Source: a virus. Taken from it: a DNA stretch of 23,246 bases. Position numbers and translations under genes: made by a program. The stretch covers positions 1 through 23,246 of the IMG/VR virus record IMGVR_UViG_3300009149_002794, one strand, 5' to 3'. The notes beneath the pieces are model-generated. The model worked only from the letters and a program-made list of their open reading frames with translations, searched no databases and was not told the origin of the DNA. Shown here one piece after another: positions 1 to 14,696 of the stretch; position 1 is the stretch's first letter, and every line of letters begins with the position of its first letter.

Positions 1-3000
1 AGACGAAAGGTTGCCGCCGAGAAGTTCTACAAAACATTCTTAGAGAACATCGACCCGAAGATCAAAGCGGACATAGAGGACCAGATGAACAGGAGAATCA
101 ACGGATATGTTCGTCAAGACTACAAAAAAGTACCTCTTGTTGTTGATGGGCTTGATGCTACCTTCGGAGGTAGGGGGCTTAGAATGCCAGACTACAAACT
201 GGATTCAATCGGGTTTCTTTCAAACAAGGGGCTAGGTATCAACGCAAACGGAGTAGGACTAGGCAAAACCATGATGGCTATTATATCGACCGTGCAAGAT
301 GTTCAGCAGGGCCGATACAAGAGACCTTTATTTATCGTACCGAGACAGGTCTATCAGAAATGGATTGATGAGATTATCCAACTATTCCCCGGACAAAAGG
401 TAGTAGGGTTCGGAAACTTAGGCACTAAATACAATGTGGAACGGTCCGAGGATATTTCGGACGCTATTAAGGACGGTGATATTACCGTAATGACCCATGA
501 GGCCATTATGAAGATGGGCTTTAAAGAGGAAACGGTAGATAGATTAAGTTTAAATTTGATGAATGCTTATGATGAATCAGCCGTCCAATACAAAACCGAA
601 AGAGCAAAAGAACTTGATACCGCCAAACGAGCAGAAATGATTGGTAAAGGAAGAGCTAGGGCTGGTATAAAAATAGAGGATTTAGGCTTTGATAATATAA
701 TCGTGGACGAGGCCCACAACTTCAAAAACATCTTTTCAAGGGCTAAGTCTCAGGAAGGAGAGAAGAAATTCAGGGGAAGATGGGGCGGGTTACAGGGGCC
801 AAGCTCATCGAGGGGGGTAAAATTGTGGTTCATGTCACAGTATATTCAGAAATTGAACGGCGGCCGAGGTGTAAAAATGCTCACCGCTACACCGTTTTCT
901 AACAATCCATTGGAGTATTACAACATGCTTTCCTTAATGGCCATGGACGAAATGAAAGCCATGGGCATTGATAACATCAATACCTTCATGGACACCTTCG
1001 TAAAGTCCAAGCACACCTTTGTCGTGAAGGCGGGCGGGAAGTTTGAAATGGGAGAAGTTATCGAGGACTGGCAGAACGGGGAACTCCTGAAAGACTTTAT
1101 CGGACGCTATATTGATTTTAAGGACGGAGAGGACTACGGAGTCGAAAGACCCACTAAACACATCAGAGACCACCGCCTGAATCCCACAGCCGAGCAATTA
1201 CAACTCATCGACGAGGCCCAAGAACTCCTTGAACCGAAATTCAAAGACCAGGGGGGAACACTGGTATACATCGACGAAGCCAAAAAGATTACCCTCAGTC
1301 CTTCACTGAGTCGCTACTACAAAGGACCGGCCATGAATGCCAAGCAGTTTATCGAGACTTCACTGAAACTGATGGCCATGATGAACATGATTAAGGGGAA
1401 CAAAAGAAAGACCGGCCAGCTAATCTACTACCCTTTGGCCGTGGACACAATGCCACTTGTGAAGGATTACCTGATTACCGAGCTAGGCTATAAGCCTTCT
1501 GAGGTTGGAATCGTCTCAGGGGCCACAACAGACGCACAGAGAGAGAAAATTAAGACTGGATTCAATGACGGCTCTATTAAGGTGATTATCGGGTCCGACG
1601 CTGTAAAGGAAGGAATCGACCTACAAGAAAAAGCTACGGATCTTTTCATCACTTCTTACCCATGGAGACCTACTGATATTACTCAGGTAGAGGGAAGAAT
1701 CCACCGACAGGGGAATGAATACCCGAATGTGCGCGTCCACTTCTTATCCGCAAATGACACCATCGATCCTTTCCTTTTCCAGAAAATGGAAACTAAGGCC
1801 CGTAGGCTTGCAAACGCTAGCGCACTGGACCAAGTAATGGACGTAAGCGATATTGATTGGGAGGCGGCCAAAGCTGACCTCATCAGAGATCCAAGGGCAA
1901 GACTTGAGGTACAGAAGGCCCAAAAGAAACAGAACATTGACCTTGAATTGGCGGCTGCCACGGCTGAAAAAGCCATGATTAACGACACCATAAACAAAGA
2001 GAAGAATCTTGTGGAAGAGATTGAATACACTAAAGGGAATATGAAGGATTATCGGGAGGGTCATAATATGCACGATTATTACAAAAAGAAGTTGAAGAAA
2101 GCCGAGCAGAAACTCAAAGACTTTCAGAAGAGAGAAATCGACCTGGACGAATTGGCGGCCCGCGCGGAAGAATTGACGATTGTGGAAAAGGTAAAGTCCG
2201 AAGAAGCCAAAGTTATCGACGCTGAATTTGCGGAGAAGGCCAAGGGGTTACAGGAATACAGACAGATTGAACCGGCACAGAATGACTACACTGTTTTCGA
2301 GAACCAGATTATCGAAGAGAACAAGACCTTTATGCAGAAGAAAGAGAAAAAAACAGTAACCGAAACGGAGAGTAAGGAGATCACACCACAGGAAATGCAA
2401 AAGAGACTCGACAAAGTAAAGGCCGATAAGGAGATAGCGCAGGAAGTCAAAGAGGATATTCAGAAAGTTGAGGAAGAAAAGGCCATCGAGCAGGAAGTAG
2501 AAAAGATGAGAGAGGAAGAAAGCTACTCCGAAATCATCGACCGAATCAAGAAAAACAAAATGCCGGTCGAGGAAGCCAGCGAAACACTGGACTTGTTACA
2601 GGCAATCAAAGCACCTGAGAATATAATAAAACAGGTCGAGGAATACAAGACAGGGCTTGAAAAGGCCATGGTCAAAGATATTGAAAACGAACTCAAAGCC
2701 GTCGAGAATGACTTAGAGGAAATCGAAAAGGCCGCCGTGGAAGGGAAGCTGTCAGGCAAAGAAGTATCAAATCTTATTTCGAACATTTTAAAAAAGAACC
2801 GATTCGCTTTCACGCGTAAGGGAACAACGCTTGAGGACTGGATTGACGCGAACATGTCAGCAAAGGATTGGCCAAGCTTTGTCAAAAACTTCCTTAATCT
2901 TTACAAGGAGGCTATCGAAAAAGGGAACAAATGGCCAGTACGGCCAGAAGTTCAGGACTTTATGAACAAGCTGGAAAGTGGTATAATGGACGATGTACAA

Positions 3001-6000
3001 ATGGAAGAGGTCACTAAATACCTACCAGAACATCTTAAACAACCACTCAATGCAAGAAAAAAGTCCACACCAACAGGAACTAAGACAGTTCAGCCAAGCC
3101 GCGGCCGCACTGAGCCAGATGTCGGAAGAGGAACAGAACTCAGTGATGGAGCAGATAAAGCAGTCAGTGAAAGAGTCTTAGAAGATGTAGAAGCCAGTAC
3201 CAGTGATGATTACGGTCCCGGCCACCCATGGTACTACAAAACTCATGAGCCACCAAAAGCTGATGATATTCTTCCGTTTGGAGACCATTCAACATTCTTA
3301 CCAGCAAAATCAAAATATGCTTCTGAACTTGCGCGATATAAAGAAGAGCTTAAAAAGGATATTGAAACATACAATGATATTGTTGAGCGAGGCGCCGACG
3401 CGCTTAGTGATTATGATAAGAATATTGCACATGGTGGCGATGTAGAGGGGGCTGTGAACATGGCGCTATCTTTGAAGACTTCGCATATATCAAACGATAA
3501 AGGAGTTATCAATATGCTGAGTGAAAAGCTCGGTAAAAAGAAACCATACAAGGAAGATGGAATAAAAACCAAAATAAAAGAAGTCCAGAAGCTTAAAACT
3601 GAGAACGTAGAATTAGACGGTAAACCAGTTGAGGTTGTTGCCACACCACAACTTGATACGAAGGGGTATCGTGACAAAGTTTTGAATGTTCTTGTAGAAC
3701 ATGAGAACGGAATGGACCAGATCGTTGATTCAAAAGATGTTGAGGTAGTTCCTCATTCGGACGAGATAATTGAGCCACCAAGCAAACCACCAGAGCCACC
3801 GGCGCCAAAGGAAAGAAAGGAAAAACCCGAAAGACCCAAACCTCAGAAGATAGACCTTGGTAAGCTAGACCGTGTTCGTGTCGTTATTCAGGACCGCATG
3901 TTACCGGCCGAGAGGTTACAAAAGAAAGCTGGGGCGGTTACAGAGGAAGAGGACATCTATCTTGCCGAGGAACTGTACAGCGGAAGAGTTACCGATGCCA
4001 TCGAGACATTCCAAAAAGAGAAGGAAGACCCGATTCGCAAGAAGATTGACCTACTGACTAAAGGGGAGAATCAAGCCCTATTGAAAGGTTTAATACAAGA
4101 CTACTTACATCTGAAACATGCGCCAGAAAGGAATAAAGCTCACTATGATGGAGCGGCGGGAATAAAGACGAAAGAAGCCAAAGAGAGGATTCAGCTAATA
4201 GAAGCACACCCAAGGTTCCAAGATATAAAACTAGGAGCCAGCTTAATACAAGAACTGGCAAGTTCGCTTCCTCAATTTTTACAGCAAAACGAGTTAATAA
4301 CCGATGAAACCTTCGAGGTTTTGAGTAATACATACAAAGAATATGTTCCTTTAAACAGGATAATGGACGACGAAACGGACTTTGTAAATACCTTGGGAAT
4401 CGGGAAAGGGTTTGATATTCGAGGTAATGAAGTTCAAAGGGCCGTCGGTAGTCGTCGTCAGATTGACGATATTTTCGCCAATGTGGTCTCAAATTGGGAG
4501 CGAGCTATAATGAGAGCCGAGAAGAACAAAGTGGGTCAGAGCGTGTACAGTTTCACAATGAAGTACCCGGAATTGGGAGTTTTCGAAATCATGCCGGCAA
4601 TCCCCGTACACCTCATGGACAAAGACGGAGGGGATTATTGGGTAAGGCAAGCACCAAAGGCTGATAATATCCTCAGTGTTAAACTGGAAGGGAAATCGAA
4701 ATACATTAAGATCAACGACCCGAACCTTGCGGCGGCGCTCAAGAACCTTAATGTAGACAACTCAAATCTGCTTATCAAAATTCTCGCACCGTTCACAAGG
4801 TACATATCAATGATAAATACCTCGCTGAATCCTGAGTTCATTATCAGCAACTTTTTAAGAGACATACAGCAATCGACCCTGAACAATGTAAATGACATGG
4901 GTCTTAATAAAGCCGTGAAGACCTCAACAAGAGTATTTAGCGCTCAGAAGGGAATAATGGACTTTTACCGAGGGAAAGATACGGAAATGTCACTACTGTA
5001 CAAGGAGCTGAAAGCTCAAGGCGGTACAACCGGATTCTTTAACATCAGGAACAAGGAGGACATCGACGCTCTACTAAGGACAGCAGAGAAGGTATGGTCA
5101 GACGGCGCAATCGGTATGCCTATGAAGATGGGTAAGAAAGTAGCCGACGCTATATCCGTGATGAATGACATCATTGAGAACGGCACAAGGCTTGCCACCT
5201 ATCAGGCGGCACTTGAAATGGGCAAGAGTAAGGCTCGCGCGGCACAGATGGCAAAAAATATTACAGTCAACTTCAACAAGAAAGGACAATTAGGGCCCAC
5301 AATCAATGCGCTGTATGCTTTCTCAAATGCTTCCATTCAGGGGTCTTTCAGAGCTTTCAAGGCATTAAAGAACCCAAAGACGGCAATACCGATTATTACT
5401 ACCATTGTTACTTTGTCGCTTGCGCTGAGTGTGTGGAATGACTGGTACGACGAAGAGGACTACGCGCGTATCCCCGAACATGAGAAGGAAGGCAACTGGA
5501 TATTCATGTACGGCGACGGAGACTACGTTAAAATTCCCCTGCCATGGGGATTCAATGTGTTCAAAGTCGCCGCTGATTACAGTTACTCAATGGCTAAAGG
5601 AGACACATCAGGTAAATACGGAATAGGACGCACAGCAGTAGCCCTAATTAACGCTTACAATCCTATTGGGGGGTCTTCTGTTGGTCAGGCACTTACACCG
5701 ACCATGTTGCGCCCAGGCTTCGATATAGCCACCAATACATCGTGGGCAGGGTACAACATCGCACCAGACAACTACACCAACATAAAAGAATCCCTGAATT
5801 ACTTTGAAAGCACCAATGATTTATTCAAATCGGCCGCCGTTATGATGAGCAAGGCCACAGGTGGAGAAGGCGCCAAGCCTGGCATGATTGAAATATCACC
5901 AGAGGACCTTGAGTATATTTGGGCGCAATACACAGGTGGTATTGGCACTTTCCTTTCACGAACTCAAAACTACCTTGGGAATATGTTCACAGGAGAAGAG

Positions 6001-6861
6001 ACTCCGATAAACGAAACTCCTTTCAAGCGTAGGGTTATGGGAGAGGTAAACCTAGAAAAGTTCAACCGCAGTCAGATGTATGACTATCTGGACCGCTCCA
6101 AAGAAGAGATACTGGCCCCCGAAGAGCGACCAAAGCTTTTGGCCGTCGTGAAAGATGAACTCAGCGCTGGACGATTGGATAAGAAAGAAGCCATCAGTAA
6201 GATGAAAGAGTACGACCGATGGCAGGAGGACTTGCAACTGGTGGACGAAAAGGCCAAATACATCAAAGAGAAAGGTCTCACTGGTGAAAAGCTCGGAAGG
6301 TTCTATGAGGCCCTGCAAGACAAGGATTTTATGAAGTCAAGAGGACAGGACACTTTCAACAAGACTCAGATCAAGATTCTAAAATCCTACACAGGAAATG
6401 CACCGGCCAGCGCGGACGCTAAAAAAAAAGCAACTGAGGCCACTACCGAAAAAGGACTGATAAGCGCCGTATTGCAGTACGCTAAGGCTTTCAGTATTGA
6501 CGCTGATTCGGCCTTCGTGACCCTATTCACAGGCGAAAAGCTCAAAGATGTACGCGGAGACTCCGTTATCATGGAGCGCATGAGCTTCGAGAAGTCCACC
6601 GAGGTCAAAAAGAAACTAGCCGATGGTATGGTACTGGACGCTATCAAACTGGACTACACGGTCCCGCTCGAATTGGGCGGCAGTAACTCAGAGGGCAATC
6701 TGAAAGTAGTCACCACTGAGGAATGGGCCAGCTACACACCAGTAGAAAACTACCTGGGCGACAAGCTGAACTCAGGCGACATCGACGAGAAGGAAGCACA
6801 ACGGCTTATTAAAGCATTTAAAGACGGTGAAATAACCGCAGAAGAGATATATAACCAATAA
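1..6861 (+). CDS. Giant polyvalent phage protein: SNF2-type helicase plus LPD38-like region (5' partial)
   Basis: The frame is open from the first base, so the protein begins upstream; 2286 residues are visible and the first ATG (85) is probably internal. Superfamily 2 SNF2-type helicase motifs are seen: motif I GVGLGKT (about 253-273), motif II VDEAHN (703-720), motif III LTATPFSNN (880-906) and motifs V/VI ending EGRIHRQGN (1690-1716). Long charged coiled coils follow (about 1900-2760), then a proline-rich linker (about 3770-3845). The next part resembles the large polyvalent protein-associated region LPD38, with a NTSLNPEFIISNFLRD core (about 4816-4863) and one hydrophobic segment (about 5383-5436). 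The tail reads DYTVPLELGGSN, an HNH-like motif with Tyr where His is usual. By analogy with polyvalent proteins of phages and conjugative elements, it may be carried in the virion, enter with DNA and act on host or phage DNA; that role is inferred. The next gene starts 4 bases downstream. Confidence 0.85.
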   Translation, partial: RRKVAAEKFYKTFLENIDPKIKADIEDQMNRRINGYVRQDYKKVPLVVDGLDATFGGRGLRMPDYKLDSIGFLSNKGLGINANGVGLGKTMMAIISTVQDVQQGRYKRPLFIVPRQVYQKWIDEIIQLFPGQKVVGFGNLGTKYNVERSEDISDAIKDGDITVMTHEAIMKMGFKEETVDRLSLNLMNAYDESAVQYKTERAKELDTAKRAEMIGKGRARAGIKIEDLGFDNIIVDEAHNFKNIFSRAKSQEGEKKFRGRWGGLQGPSSSRGVKLWFMSQYIQKLNGGRGVKMLTATPFSNNPLEYYNMLSLMAMDEMKAMGIDNINTFMDTFVKSKHTFVVKAGGKFEMGEVIEDWQNGELLKDFIGRYIDFKDGEDYGVERPTKHIRDHRLNPTAEQLQLIDEAQELLEPKFKDQGGTLVYIDEAKKITLSPSLSRYYKGPAMNAKQFIETSLKLMAMMNMIKGNKRKTGQLIYYPLAVDTMPLVKDYLITELGYKPSEVGIVSGATTDAQREKIKTGFNDGSIKVIIGSDAVKEGIDLQEKATDLFITSYPWRPTDITQVEGRIHRQGNEYPNVRVHFLSANDTIDPFLFQKMETKARRLANASALDQVMDVSDIDWEAAKADLIRDPRARLEVQKAQKKQNIDLELAAATAEKAMINDTINKEKNLVEEIEYTKGNMKDYREGHNMHDYYKKKLKKAEQKLKDFQKREIDLDELAARAEELTIVEKVKSEEAKVIDAEFAEKAKGLQEYRQIEPAQNDYTVFENQIIEENKTFMQKKEKKTVTETESKEITPQEMQKRLDKVKADKEIAQEVKEDIQKVEEEKAIEQEVEKMREEESYSEIIDRIKKNKMPVEEASETLDLLQAIKAPENIIKQVEEYKTGLEKAMVKDIENELKAVENDLEEIEKAAVEGKLSGKEVSNLISNILKKNRFAFTRKGTTLEDWIDANMSAKDWPSFVKNFLNLYKEAIEKGNKWPVRPEVQDFMNKLESGIMDDVQMEEVTKYLPEHLKQPLNARKKSTPTGTKTVQPSRGRTEPDVGRGTELSDGADKAVSERVLEDVEASTSDDYGPGHPWYYKTHEPPKADDILPFGDHSTFLPAKSKYASELARYKEELKKDIETYNDIVERGADALSDYDKNIAHGGDVEGAVNMALSLKTSHISNDKGVINMLSEKLGKKKPYKEDGIKTKIKEVQKLKTENVELDGKPVEVVATPQLDTKGYRDKVLNVLVEHENGMDQIVDSKDVEVVPHSDEIIEPPSKPPEPPAPKERKEKPERPKPQKIDLGKLDRVRVVIQDRMLPAERLQKKAGAVTEEEDIYLAEELYSGRVTDAIETFQKEKEDPIRKKIDLLTKGENQALLKGLIQDYLHLKHAPERNKAHYDGAAGIKTKEAKERIQLIEAHPRFQDIKLGASLIQELASSLPQFLQQNELITDETFEVLSNTYKEYVPLNRIMDDETDFVNTLGIGKGFDIRGNEVQRAVGSRRQIDDIFANVVSNWERAIMRAEKNKVGQSVYSFTMKYPELGVFEIMPAIPVHLMDKDGGDYWVRQAPKADNILSVKLEGKSKYIKINDPNLAAALKNLNVDNSNLLIKILAPFTRYISMINTSLNPEFIISNFLRDIQQSTLNNVNDMGLNKAVKTSTRVFSAQKGIMDFYRGKDTEMSLLYKELKAQGGTTGFFNIRNKEDIDALLRTAEKVWSDGAIGMPMKMGKKVADAISVMNDIIENGTRLATYQAALEMGKSKARAAQMAKNITVNFNKKGQLGPTINALYAFSNASIQGSFRAFKALKNPKTAIPIITTIVTLSLALSVWNDWYDEEDYARIPEHEKEGNWIFMYGDGDYVKIPLPWGFNVFKVAADYSYSMAKGDTSGKYGIGRTAVALINAYNPIGGSSVGQALTPTMLRPGFDIATNTSWAGYNIAPDNYTNIKESLNYFESTNDLFKSAAVMMSKATGGEGAKPGMIEISPEDLEYIWAQYTGGIGTFLSRTQNYLGNMFTGEETPINETPFKRRVMGEVNLEKFNRSQMYDYLDRSKEEILAPEERPKLLAVVKDELSAGRLDKKEAISKMKEYDRWQEDLQLVDEKAKYIKEKGLTGEKLGRFYEALQDKDFMKSRGQDTFNKTQIKILKSYTGNAPASADAKKKATEATTEKGLISAVLQYAKAFSIDADSAFVTLFTGEKLKDVRGDSVIMERMSFEKSTEVKKKLADGMVLDAIKLDYTVPLELGGSNSEGNLKVVTTEEWASYTPVENYLGDKLNSGDIDEKEAQRLIKAFKDGEITAEEIYNQ

Positions 6862-13364: not shown

Positions 13365-13739
13365 ATGAACCAAAACACAAAAATAATAAAAGACCTGGAC
13401 AATCTGGTAAGCCGTATCGTGAAGGCCCGCGACCCTATGTGCAAACTTGGAGTGAATTGTTACTACACTAGCAGGAGCGTTGACCCAGCCCATGTGTTCG
13501 GGAGGACAAACATGGCGACAAGATGGGAGCTTATGGCCGTGTTCGGGGCTTGTCGGGAGTGCCATTCGTACATCGACACACACCCGGACAAGAAGAGGAA
13601 ACTATTCAGACAGCTAATGGGATTCGTTATGTACGACAAATTCGAGGCACTTTCAAATACCAATGTGAAGTATTTACCAAGTGATCTTAAAGAAATCAAA
13701 AAAACCCTCACTCAAGAGCTAAATTATCTTGATTTCTAA
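13365..13739 (+). CDS. ninG: NinG-like HNH/zinc nuclease
   Basis: 124 residues. It has LDNLVSRIVKARDPMC, a first Cys pair Cys26/Cys32, HVFGR with His43, then CRECHSYID with Cys63, Cys66 and His67. This Cys-Cys-His-Cys-Cys-His arrangement matches NinG (Rap)-like phage recombination endonucleases and HNH proteins; lambda NinG acts on branched recombination intermediates. It is shorter than lambda NinG (about 200). ATGAACCAA start, no Shine-Dalgarno sequence. The promoter at 13729 overlaps its 3' end. Confidence 0.72.
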   Translation: MNQNTKIIKDLDNLVSRIVKARDPMCKLGVNCYYTSRSVDPAHVFGRTNMATRWELMAVFGACRECHSYIDTHPDKKRKLFRQLMGFVMYDKFEALSNTNVKYLPSDLKEIKKTLTQELNYLDF

Positions 13740-13763: not shown

Positions 13764-14090
13764 ACAAAAAAGCTATGCCAAATGCCTACACAATCACAGT
13801 TCGGATTAAGTGGATTCTCAGACGGAAGGCTCATTAACAATTCGGGATTATTTAGCGTTCCTTCTGTATGAATCGCGGAAGGTAAAAGCTGATAGGTCAG
13901 AACATCTAAGCCAACGATGTGCCTACGGCTGGCAATATGGCGCCAGCTAGACCCGTGGAAGGCACCGAAGTGTGCAATTTGTAAACCTAGACATTTCGGA
14001 CCACGGAGGGATATAGGGCATTGATGGGTGTTAAGCCGCCATGCGGTCACAAGTCCCATCTTTACTGGAAGCGAGGAATCCAGAAGGAAC
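13764..14090 (+). ncRNA. Large structured non-coding RNA candidate
   Basis: No ORF over 29 codons. Strong helices: CCGTGG/CCACGG (13953-13958 with 14001-14006) encloses the 9-bp helix CCGAAGTGT/ACATTTCGG (13965-13973 with 13991-13999, one G-U). GCTGGC/GCCAGC spans 13928-13947. GATGGG/CCCATC (14023-14028 with 14055-14060) encloses CCGC-CAT-GCGG (14036-14046). ACATC/GATGT is at 13902-13920 and CTGG/CCAG at 14065-14083. CCTTCT (13860-13865) can pair with either of two GGAAGG copies (13824-13829, 13877-13882). I looked for group I and II intron cores, tmRNA and RNase P signatures and found none convincing. Size and closeness to a tRNA-like element recall large phage RNAs such as GOLLD and ROOL, but I see no specific consensus. 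Confidence 0.6.
13782..13871 (+). CDS. Possible 29-residue leader peptide or gene fragment
   Basis: ATG at 13782 to TGA at 13869-13871, 18 bases after the expected start of the RNA. The peptide begins MPTQSQFGLSGFSDGRL and ends SVPSV. The stop falls in the loop of the CCTTCT/GGAAGG hairpin, so translation would disturb that pairing. It could be a leader peptide, the remnant of a longer gene, or chance. A second ATG (13775) in another frame gives only 20 codons. Confidence 0.25.
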   Translation: MPTQSQFGLSGFSDGRLINNSGLFSVPSV

Positions 14091-14107
14091 TTTGAATAAT
14101 CAATTTC

Positions 14108-14226
14108 GTGTTGTGGAGTAAGTGGCGGAATAGGTAGATGCTAGGCTAACTAGTTTGACCGTAGTGGGACAAACATGCAGGGTGACTAAGCAAATTATGT
14201 GAAATCCCTGCCTTACCCCACAACAC
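14108..14226 (+). tRNA. tRNA-Leu-like element, non-canonical (T-loop insertion, extended acceptor stem)
   Basis: The D-arm TGGCGGAATAGGTAGATGC (14123-14141) differs at only two positions from the D-arm of bacterial tRNA-Leu. The T-stem GCAGGG/CCCTGC (14177-14182 with 14206-14211) has AAAT before its 3' strand, as in a normal T-loop, but the loop is 23 instead of 7 bases. The closing stem runs 14108-14122 with 14212-14226: 15 positions with one A-C mismatch, about twice an acceptor stem. An anticodon arm GGCTA-ACTAGTT-TGACC (14144-14160) would give anticodon UAG (Leu) but has a C-A mismatch and C at position 33 instead of U. A competing hairpin GTTTG.CC/GG.CAAAC (14153-14174) exists. No encoded CCA follows. 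It may be a pseudo-tRNA or a tRNA-mimicking end of the larger RNA. Confidence 0.5.
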
Positions 14227-14246: not shown

Positions 14247-14696
14247 ATGAAAGTAGTAATACGACAATACCCTGAGTCGGTAATCAGCCGACCAGTCACA
14301 AATGAGGACCTTCCAAGAGTCCTTGAGACCGTACCGATCATGTACGAAGTCCTAAACAGGAAGACCGGCATGTATAAAGACGGCCACGCTTTGGCCCATG
14401 TTCAGGTGGTCGATAAGGACCCCTTGCGGTTTTATGTACTGAAAGACGGCTCTTATGTTATCAATCCCGTGATAGTGCGCCACACCAGGCACACCGTACA
14501 GAAAATGGAAGGTTGCCTTTCGTACTGTACCAAGAGACCAATTCTGATGGACCGCTACCACAAGTGCGATGTGGAGGTCCAGCTAATCAACGACAATGTT
14601 CTAGGCGAGCCAGTCCGATTCACTCTAGCAGGAATTGACGCTCAGATTGTTCAGCACGAAGTAGATCACATGGACGGAAAAACAATTTATTATTAA
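14247..14696 (+). CDS. def: Peptide deformylase, phage type
   Basis: 149 residues. Three diagnostic motifs are present: motif 1 is degenerate (GHALAHVQ, 46-53, with Gln53), motif 2 EGCLS (88-92, Cys90) and motif 3 QHEVDH (136-141). Cys90, His137 and His141 bind the metal and Glu138 is catalytic. The enzyme removes the formyl group from nascent proteins. Phage deformylases lack the C-terminal helix of bacterial ones; this protein ends soon after motif 3 (MDGKTIYY), as they do. It begins just after the tRNA-like element, so two translation-related functions lie side by side. Confidence 0.88.
   Translation: MKVVIRQYPESVISRPVTNEDLPRVLETVPIMYEVLNRKTGMYKDGHALAHVQVVDKDPLRFYVLKDGSYVINPVIVRHTRHTVQKMEGCLSYCTKRPILMDRYHKCDVEVQLINDNVLGEPVRFTLAGIDAQIVQHEVDHMDGKTIYY

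Follow-up and report, generated by a model that had tools for sequence, protein, structure and literature searches.

The orphan virus record that carries the element studied here is 23,246 bases long and was analysed at its full length (hereafter the window). Its NinG/Rap-like gene (13365-13739) and its peptide deformylase gene (14247-14696) are separated by a gap of 507 nt, part of which the element occupies. The same stretch carries NinB, a C5 methylase and, further on, TerS and TerL, while the 2258-aa protein encoded at 85-6861 has an SNF2-like helicase domain at its N-terminus and an LPD38 domain at its C-terminus. Of the window gene starts examined, 24 out of 26 lack a Shine-Dalgarno motif, suggesting that the host is not one of the Firmicutes and perhaps belongs to the Bacteroidota. 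The lineage of the window itself remains orphan: when the flanking proteins were used as a route to relatives, NinG and the FtsK/nuclease protein gave none, the deformylase led to four distant loci and the terminase to one. The gap contains the following features:

13846-14101, + strand: second structured domain, branched and closed by an inverted repeat of 31 nt, immediately 5' of the element
14108-14115, + strand: acceptor extension, 5' strand (GTGTTGTG), 8 bp past the 7-bp acceptor and the perfect complement of 14219-14226
14116-14122, + strand: acceptor stem, 5' strand (GAGTAAG), the homologous helix of which covaries
14123-14124, + strand: positions 8-9 (T, G); T8 is tRNA-like, is set by the family search pattern and is seen in the blast-found LpeD element
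14125-14141, + strand: Leu-type D-arm GCG-GAATAGGTAGA-TGC with A14, A15, G18 and G19, common to phage LpeD
14142-14152, + strand: linker TAGGCTAACTA at the place of the anticodon arm (LpeD counterpart CTAG-TGA-CTAG)
14153-14174, + strand: variable-domain hairpin GTTTG-ACCGTAGTGGGA-CAAAC (stem 14153-14157/14170-14174), 2 nt 5' of the T-stem, as in homologues
14175-14176, + strand: AT linker, with T48 in a possible Levitt pair with A15; most family middles end in AT
14177-14182, + strand: T-stem, 5' strand (GCAGGG), 6 bp, from the drawn stem and the homologue alignment
14183-14205, + strand: T-loop of 23 nt, TG-(17-nt insert ACTAAGCAAATTATGTG)-AAAT, of which the family form is TG-C-AAAT
14206-14211, + strand: T-stem, 3' strand (CCCTGC), pairing with GCAGGG
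14212-14218, + strand: acceptor stem, 3' strand (CTTACCC), pairing with GAGTAAG
14219-14226, + strand: acceptor extension, 3' strand (CACAACAC); CCA is not encoded, and is also absent in the family

The coordinates given in the first-pass annotation (14108-14226) proved exact, and the 15-bp closing stem, the 23-nt T-loop and the near-identity of the D-arm to that of bacterial tRNA-Leu, all noted there, are present. The closing helix (GTGTTGTG-GAGTAAG, 14108-14122, against CTTACCC-CACAACAC, 14212-14226, i.e. 8 + 7 bp) forms 14 of its 15 pairs, A14117-C14217 being the sole mismatch. The T-stem, which had been taken as normal, is with 6 bp one pair longer than in a tRNA, and the C reported at anticodon position 33 has no meaning there, since a proper anticodon arm cannot be drawn in the element; its third helix (GTTTG/CAAAC) stops 2 nt before the T-stem. 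Of the traits of a canonical tRNA-Leu, the Leu-type D-arm with A14 and G18-G19 is found, and the 5-bp anticodon stem with a 7-nt loop and T33, the canonical T-arm (a 7-nt TTCRANY loop on a 5-bp stem) and the A73 with CCA end are not, N73 being a C.

The fold of the element is better than that of most shuffled sequences (z = -2.75, with 2 of 200 shuffles equally good), and with 8-nt flanks included z becomes -3.6. ARAGORN did not find a tRNA at the element, also not with its intron options at the normal threshold, and with the -m option at a lowered threshold it returned only permuted low-score candidates ('Tag not identified'), without a tmRNA tag frame. An Rfam scan of the window gave no match to tRNA (RF00005), tmRNA (RF00023), GOLLD, ROOL, phi29 pRNA or a self-splicing intron. 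The branched domain at 13846-14101 folds considerably better than its shuffles (z = -5.31, reached by 0 of 200) and may belong to the same RNA as the element; a search for homologues of this domain found none.

A blastn search with the window matched Lactobacillus phage LpeD over the D-arm. This phage has the same D-arm, and CTAG-TGA-CTAG stands where an anticodon arm would follow; ARAGORN misses this element too. The LpeD element in turn matched 72 phage records (from Lactobacillus, Enterococcus, Leuconostoc, Listeria, Weissella, Paenibacillus and others), in which the ends are conserved and the middle is variable. A pattern of D-arm plus T-arm, for which the number of chance matches in these collections was estimated at far below one, was found in at least 120 stretches of viral contigs and in 81 of genomes. 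In total, the family comprises at least about 200 phage or prophage elements, mainly from Firmicutes, including SPP1, phi3T, SPbeta relatives and Listeria B025. The pattern was present in 10 of 151 sampled Lactobacillaceae genomes (a reversed control pattern in none) and, in a phylum-wide sample, in 1 of 398 genomes, this being the query genome itself.

A covariance model built from 45 members, with the window left out, recovered 14116-14219 (E = 2.2e-10, 43.9 bits) and gave no second match anywhere in the window. Blast-found members, for which the pattern had not been used, scored 46-79 bits with the model, whereas the best ordinary tRNA-Leu reached 35.7 bits in one Lactiplantibacillus genome and 29.4 bits in phage EFDG1. 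Among the well-known phages, SPP1 carries an unannotated member between gene 9 and the scaffold gene (76.8 bits), phi3T scores 63.6 bits (the record used has no annotation), and SPbetaL6 (55.8 bits) and Listeria B025 (53.5 bits) contain unannotated members as well. None of the records examined carries an RNA annotation for the family, no Rfam 15 family matches it, and a literature search, which covered few subscription papers and excluded preprints, found no description of it; the paper that re-annotated SPP1 in 2018 (PMC6316719) never uses the word tRNA. The sequence comparisons thus establish the element as a member of a widespread, hitherto unannotated phage RNA family derived from tRNA-Leu.

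The core of the family consists of the 7-bp acceptor, the Leu-type D-arm, a 6-bp T-stem and the T-loop TGCAAAT (with G55), and keeps the letters of the tRNA elbow, i.e. T8, A14, A15-T48, G18, G19, T54, C56 and A58. The family statistics refer to 180 distinct sequences, in which the letters of the D-arm and T-loop are fixed by construction of the pattern; members found independently of it by blast have the same loops, and their D-stem variants stay paired (GAG/CTC in phage LN34). The acceptor is paired in 91-99% of the 180 sequences at each position, using all pair types, compared to the 40-57% expected at positions 1-6 if the strands were independent. In a 45-row alignment, 97.9% of the acceptor and T-stem cells are paired versus 73.7% after shuffling, with 188 versus 50 double-change cells and a covariation score of 0.685 versus 0.179, while slid controls reach at most 42.5% pairing. 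The acceptor/T-stem stack is therefore a covarying one of 7 + 6 bp. N73 varies (A in 60%, T in 24%), and CCA is not encoded.

Between D-arm and T-stem lies a middle of 21-78 nt within the range of the pattern, and of up to ~170 nt among the blast finds (phage ATCC 8014-B2), for which neither a common sequence nor a common fold was found. A helix that ends exactly 2 nt before the T-stem (score of at least 12) is nevertheless seen in 53% of the 180 homologues versus 8% of shuffled middles, and the window shares this trait, its GTTTG/CAAAC helix abutting the T-stem via the AT linker. A uniform pseudoknot in the middle domain was considered and rejected, the enrichment being modest only and clear in the Paenibacillus/Lentibacillus group. 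Since the variable domain stands in place of the anticodon arm, members of the family are unable to decode.

These results bear directly on the suggestion that the locus is a tRNA-Leu gene in decay, or else a tRNA fragment remaining as an integration site. The close match of the D-arm to that of tRNA-Leu, the mismatch in the acceptor and the lack of a tRNA call by ARAGORN would all fit with decay, but compensatory changes occur family-wide in acceptor and T-stem, both halves of the tRNA-like fold are present, the point of T-loop insertion recurs in six other contigs, and homologues occur in strictly lytic phages such as SPP1. For the family, the covariation leads us to reject decay, and for the element it seems extremely unlikely. 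A tRNA with an unusual intron, the second option raised, fits neither with the result of the ARAGORN intron options nor with a family that lacks the anticodon arm. The homologues contained no intact canonical tRNA at this place, nor did both arms drift randomly. Together, the covariation in the family, the recurrent T-loop insertion and the match of a model blind to the window point to a selected RNA rather than to decay or an intron, and of the options in the first-pass annotation it is the mimic, here derived from tRNA-Leu, that gains support.

The window does not have the typical T-loop TGCAAAT, which is not required in the branch with an insert after TG. A second pattern yielded six further independent contigs with such an insert, namely L228, L229 (= L235), L230, L233, L234 and L236, which score 47-62 bits with the covariance model and keep the pairing of acceptor and T-stem despite different sequences. 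Their inserts, of ~9-33 nt, are located at the same point as in the window and always start with TGA and end with CAAAT. Three other matches (L105, L231 and L232) were dropped as chance matches of the pattern, in which an ordinary T-loop is followed by another AAATCC. When leader and trailer were examined for pairing past the acceptor, the window, L234 and L236 gave significant values (p <= 0.0005) and L229 a suggestive one (p = 0.02), whereas L228, L233 and, despite 12 contiguous bp, L230 did not reach significance. Structure upstream, comparable in place to the 13846-14101 domain, is not marked in the other insert members. Given the same insertion point in six contigs and the extended helix in some of them, the enlarged T-loop marks a branch of the family, to which the window belongs, and the longer closing helix is a trait of part of that branch. 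As a trait of the whole family, the longer acceptor helix was rejected, since the flanks of the 180 members pair no more than expected.

The acceptor sequence follows the host. Among loci of known host genus, the agreement between acceptors is 4.77 of 7 positions for loci that share the genus and 2.63 of 7 for loci of different genera, also where the middles are unlike each other; none of 1000 label permutations reached this effect. The acceptor is GTGCTTG in all six Lactiplantibacillus elements, which come from quite different phages. In other words, the middle domains reassort against the acceptors, while the acceptors follow the host genus, which could reflect either host-specific selection or exchange of elements among phages of one host. 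That the acceptor is copied from a host tRNA was rejected for the one Lactiplantibacillus genome concerned, as none of the tRNAs examined matched.

Such a pattern would be in line with a decoy or anti-defence RNA, the tRNA-like fold of which titrates a host tRNA-acting enzyme, or a toxin lethal to infected cells; an arms race would then be the reason why the anticodon arm is missing and the middle domain changes. Besides the highly diverse, reassorting middle and the host-following acceptor, this is favoured by the occurrence of elements in unrelated phage types and by a Tad2-like anti-defence gene that recurs near the element, downstream, at 14 of the 180 loci (cluster 5, e.g. in L019). However, the Tad2-like genes may merely share the region, the acceptors of host tRNAs (in one genome) do not match that of the element, and we regard this explanation as rather doubtful.

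The location of the elements points in another direction. At the 180 loci the commonest neighbours are TerS (downstream, at 30 loci), two late-regulator-like clusters (upstream), HNH and TerL, where the label late-regulator-like rests on position and on RinA in phage Sha1, one of the clusters being DUF722 and the other without a Pfam match. In Sha1 the order is RinA, element, HNH, TerS, TerL, and elements are co-oriented with the neighbouring late or packaging genes. A terminator-like hairpin is found within 200 nt downstream in 26% of cases, compared to 7-9% of distant controls, and the flanks of the elements are more structured than controls. A -10-like motif at a set distance upstream of family members was not seen. 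In SPP1, a T-arm-like minihelix with a T-run end lies 3' of the element (L237, about 3113-3160); it is terminator-like and contains a TTCAATT T-loop.

The element could thus be a cis-acting leader of the late or packaging transcript, which controls read-through of a terminator or provides an mRNA end set by RNase P for the terminase and head genes, as its position between late-regulator-like genes and HNH-TerS-TerL, its orientation, the enriched hairpins and the structured flanks would suggest. On the other hand, members are also found inside tRNA clusters and elsewhere, the terminator-like site is present in about a quarter only, with none evident in the 20 nt between the element and the next gene of the window, and a cis role does not need the diversity of the variable domain. 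Taken together, a leader function is unlikely. Still less can be said for an RNA that is part of the DNA-packaging motor, with a role comparable to that of phi29 pRNA: elements do often lie near terminase, portal or record ends (for instance in a gap between TerL-like and portal-like genes, which were named from sequence reading), but the terminases are many and unrelated, some elements are far from any, the window has no Rfam match and the middle domain is hypervariable, which makes a packaging RNA very unlikely.

The family has conserved what makes a tRNA L-shaped and has lost what decodes. What is left could be a stable scaffold that would look tRNA-like to host enzymes, with the variable domain doing the acting. 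In the mechanism proposed, the RNA would be made from late or packaging-region transcripts, its tRNA-like core would be matured or protected by host tRNA-processing enzymes (with RNase P acting on members that have single-stranded leaders), and the exchangeable effector domain displayed on the scaffold would act on a host component. In the branch of the window, the longer helix would close the ends, so that the module probably stays within, or caps, a longer transcript and would not be cut at +1. Aminoacylation as the conserved role is disfavoured, and synthetase binding looks weak as well, since N73 varies, CCA is not encoded and the acceptor appears free to vary. Counted against the best explanation are the C at N73 and the A-C mismatch in the acceptor of the window, and no target of the variable domain was found.

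As a whole, an anticodon-less family derived from tRNA-Leu that serves as a scaffold for an effector domain seems to us a reasonably probable explanation. Its functional half, i.e. a stable tRNA-like scaffold that is matured or protected by host enzymes and displays an exchangeable effector, is put forward tentatively on the basis of the pattern of conservation. More speculative, and somewhat improbable, is the wider proposal that a host-adapted scaffold with interchangeable effectors, spread over many unrelated phages, acts on a host RNA-binding or tRNA-acting factor (i.e. takeover or anti-defence by RNA). In any case, the family has gone unannotated although it occurs in at least about 200 sequences of phages and prophages, among them SPP1 and phi3T, which serve as laboratory models. 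It combines a conserved, non-decoding tRNA core with one part that is swapped between phages of one host and another that follows the host, as would be expected of a system that interacts with the host, and SPP1 in B. subtilis offers a setting in which this is directly testable.

Of the known systems, bacterial tRNA-Leu is the obvious relative: the D-arm and D-loop are nearly identical (host GGCGGAATTGGCAGACGC, family GGCGGAATAGGTAGACGC), and the 7-bp acceptor and elbow positions are shared. The family differs from it in the absence of the anticodon arm, the 6-bp T-stem, the G55 of TGCAAAT (usually T), the variable N73 and the absent CCA; in the window, the T-loop is further enlarged by 17 nt and the acceptor lengthened by 8 bp. 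In phage phiJL-1, a tRNA-like RNA of 60 nt (L011 1895-1954) precedes the family member by ~50 nt; it has an acceptor, a D-arm and a T-arm, lacks the anticodon arm and matches the Rfam tRNA model with 42 bits.

The GOLLD and ROOL RNAs are likewise phage-borne, structured and found near tRNA clusters, and phage ATCC 8014-B2 has a ROOL RNA (L015 946-1518) ~500 nt upstream of its family member. They differ in that the core of the family is far smaller and tRNA-derived, and neither has a covariance match in the window. The Listeria sRNAs rliG and rli62, both reported to belong to prophage A118 (PMC3556495), are found immediately upstream of the B025 member, at the place taken by the 13846-14101 domain in the window; unlike the family, they are separate RNAs that are not tRNA-like, and they have no similarity to the window. 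The matches in B025 (L240 2752-2989, 3275-3325) comprise rliG and rli62 upstream, just below the gathering scores, and an mcrA RNA downstream, and related upstream sequence also occurs in Staphylococcus and Lactobacillus phages.

A further parallel is tmRNA (RF00023), where a tRNA-like domain likewise encloses another domain standing in for the anticodon arm and pseudoknot-like pairings sometimes occur. In contrast to tmRNA, family members are only ~70-210 nt long, keep a Leu-type D-stem and have no recognised tag frame; RF00023 does not match in the window, and SPP1 gave a stray match of 13.8 bits, the only one. In fact, Enterococcus phage EFDG1 carries a full tmRNA (L016 1488-1838, 140.6 bits) that ends where its family element begins, and with a real tmRNA directly beside a family member the two are distinct RNAs.
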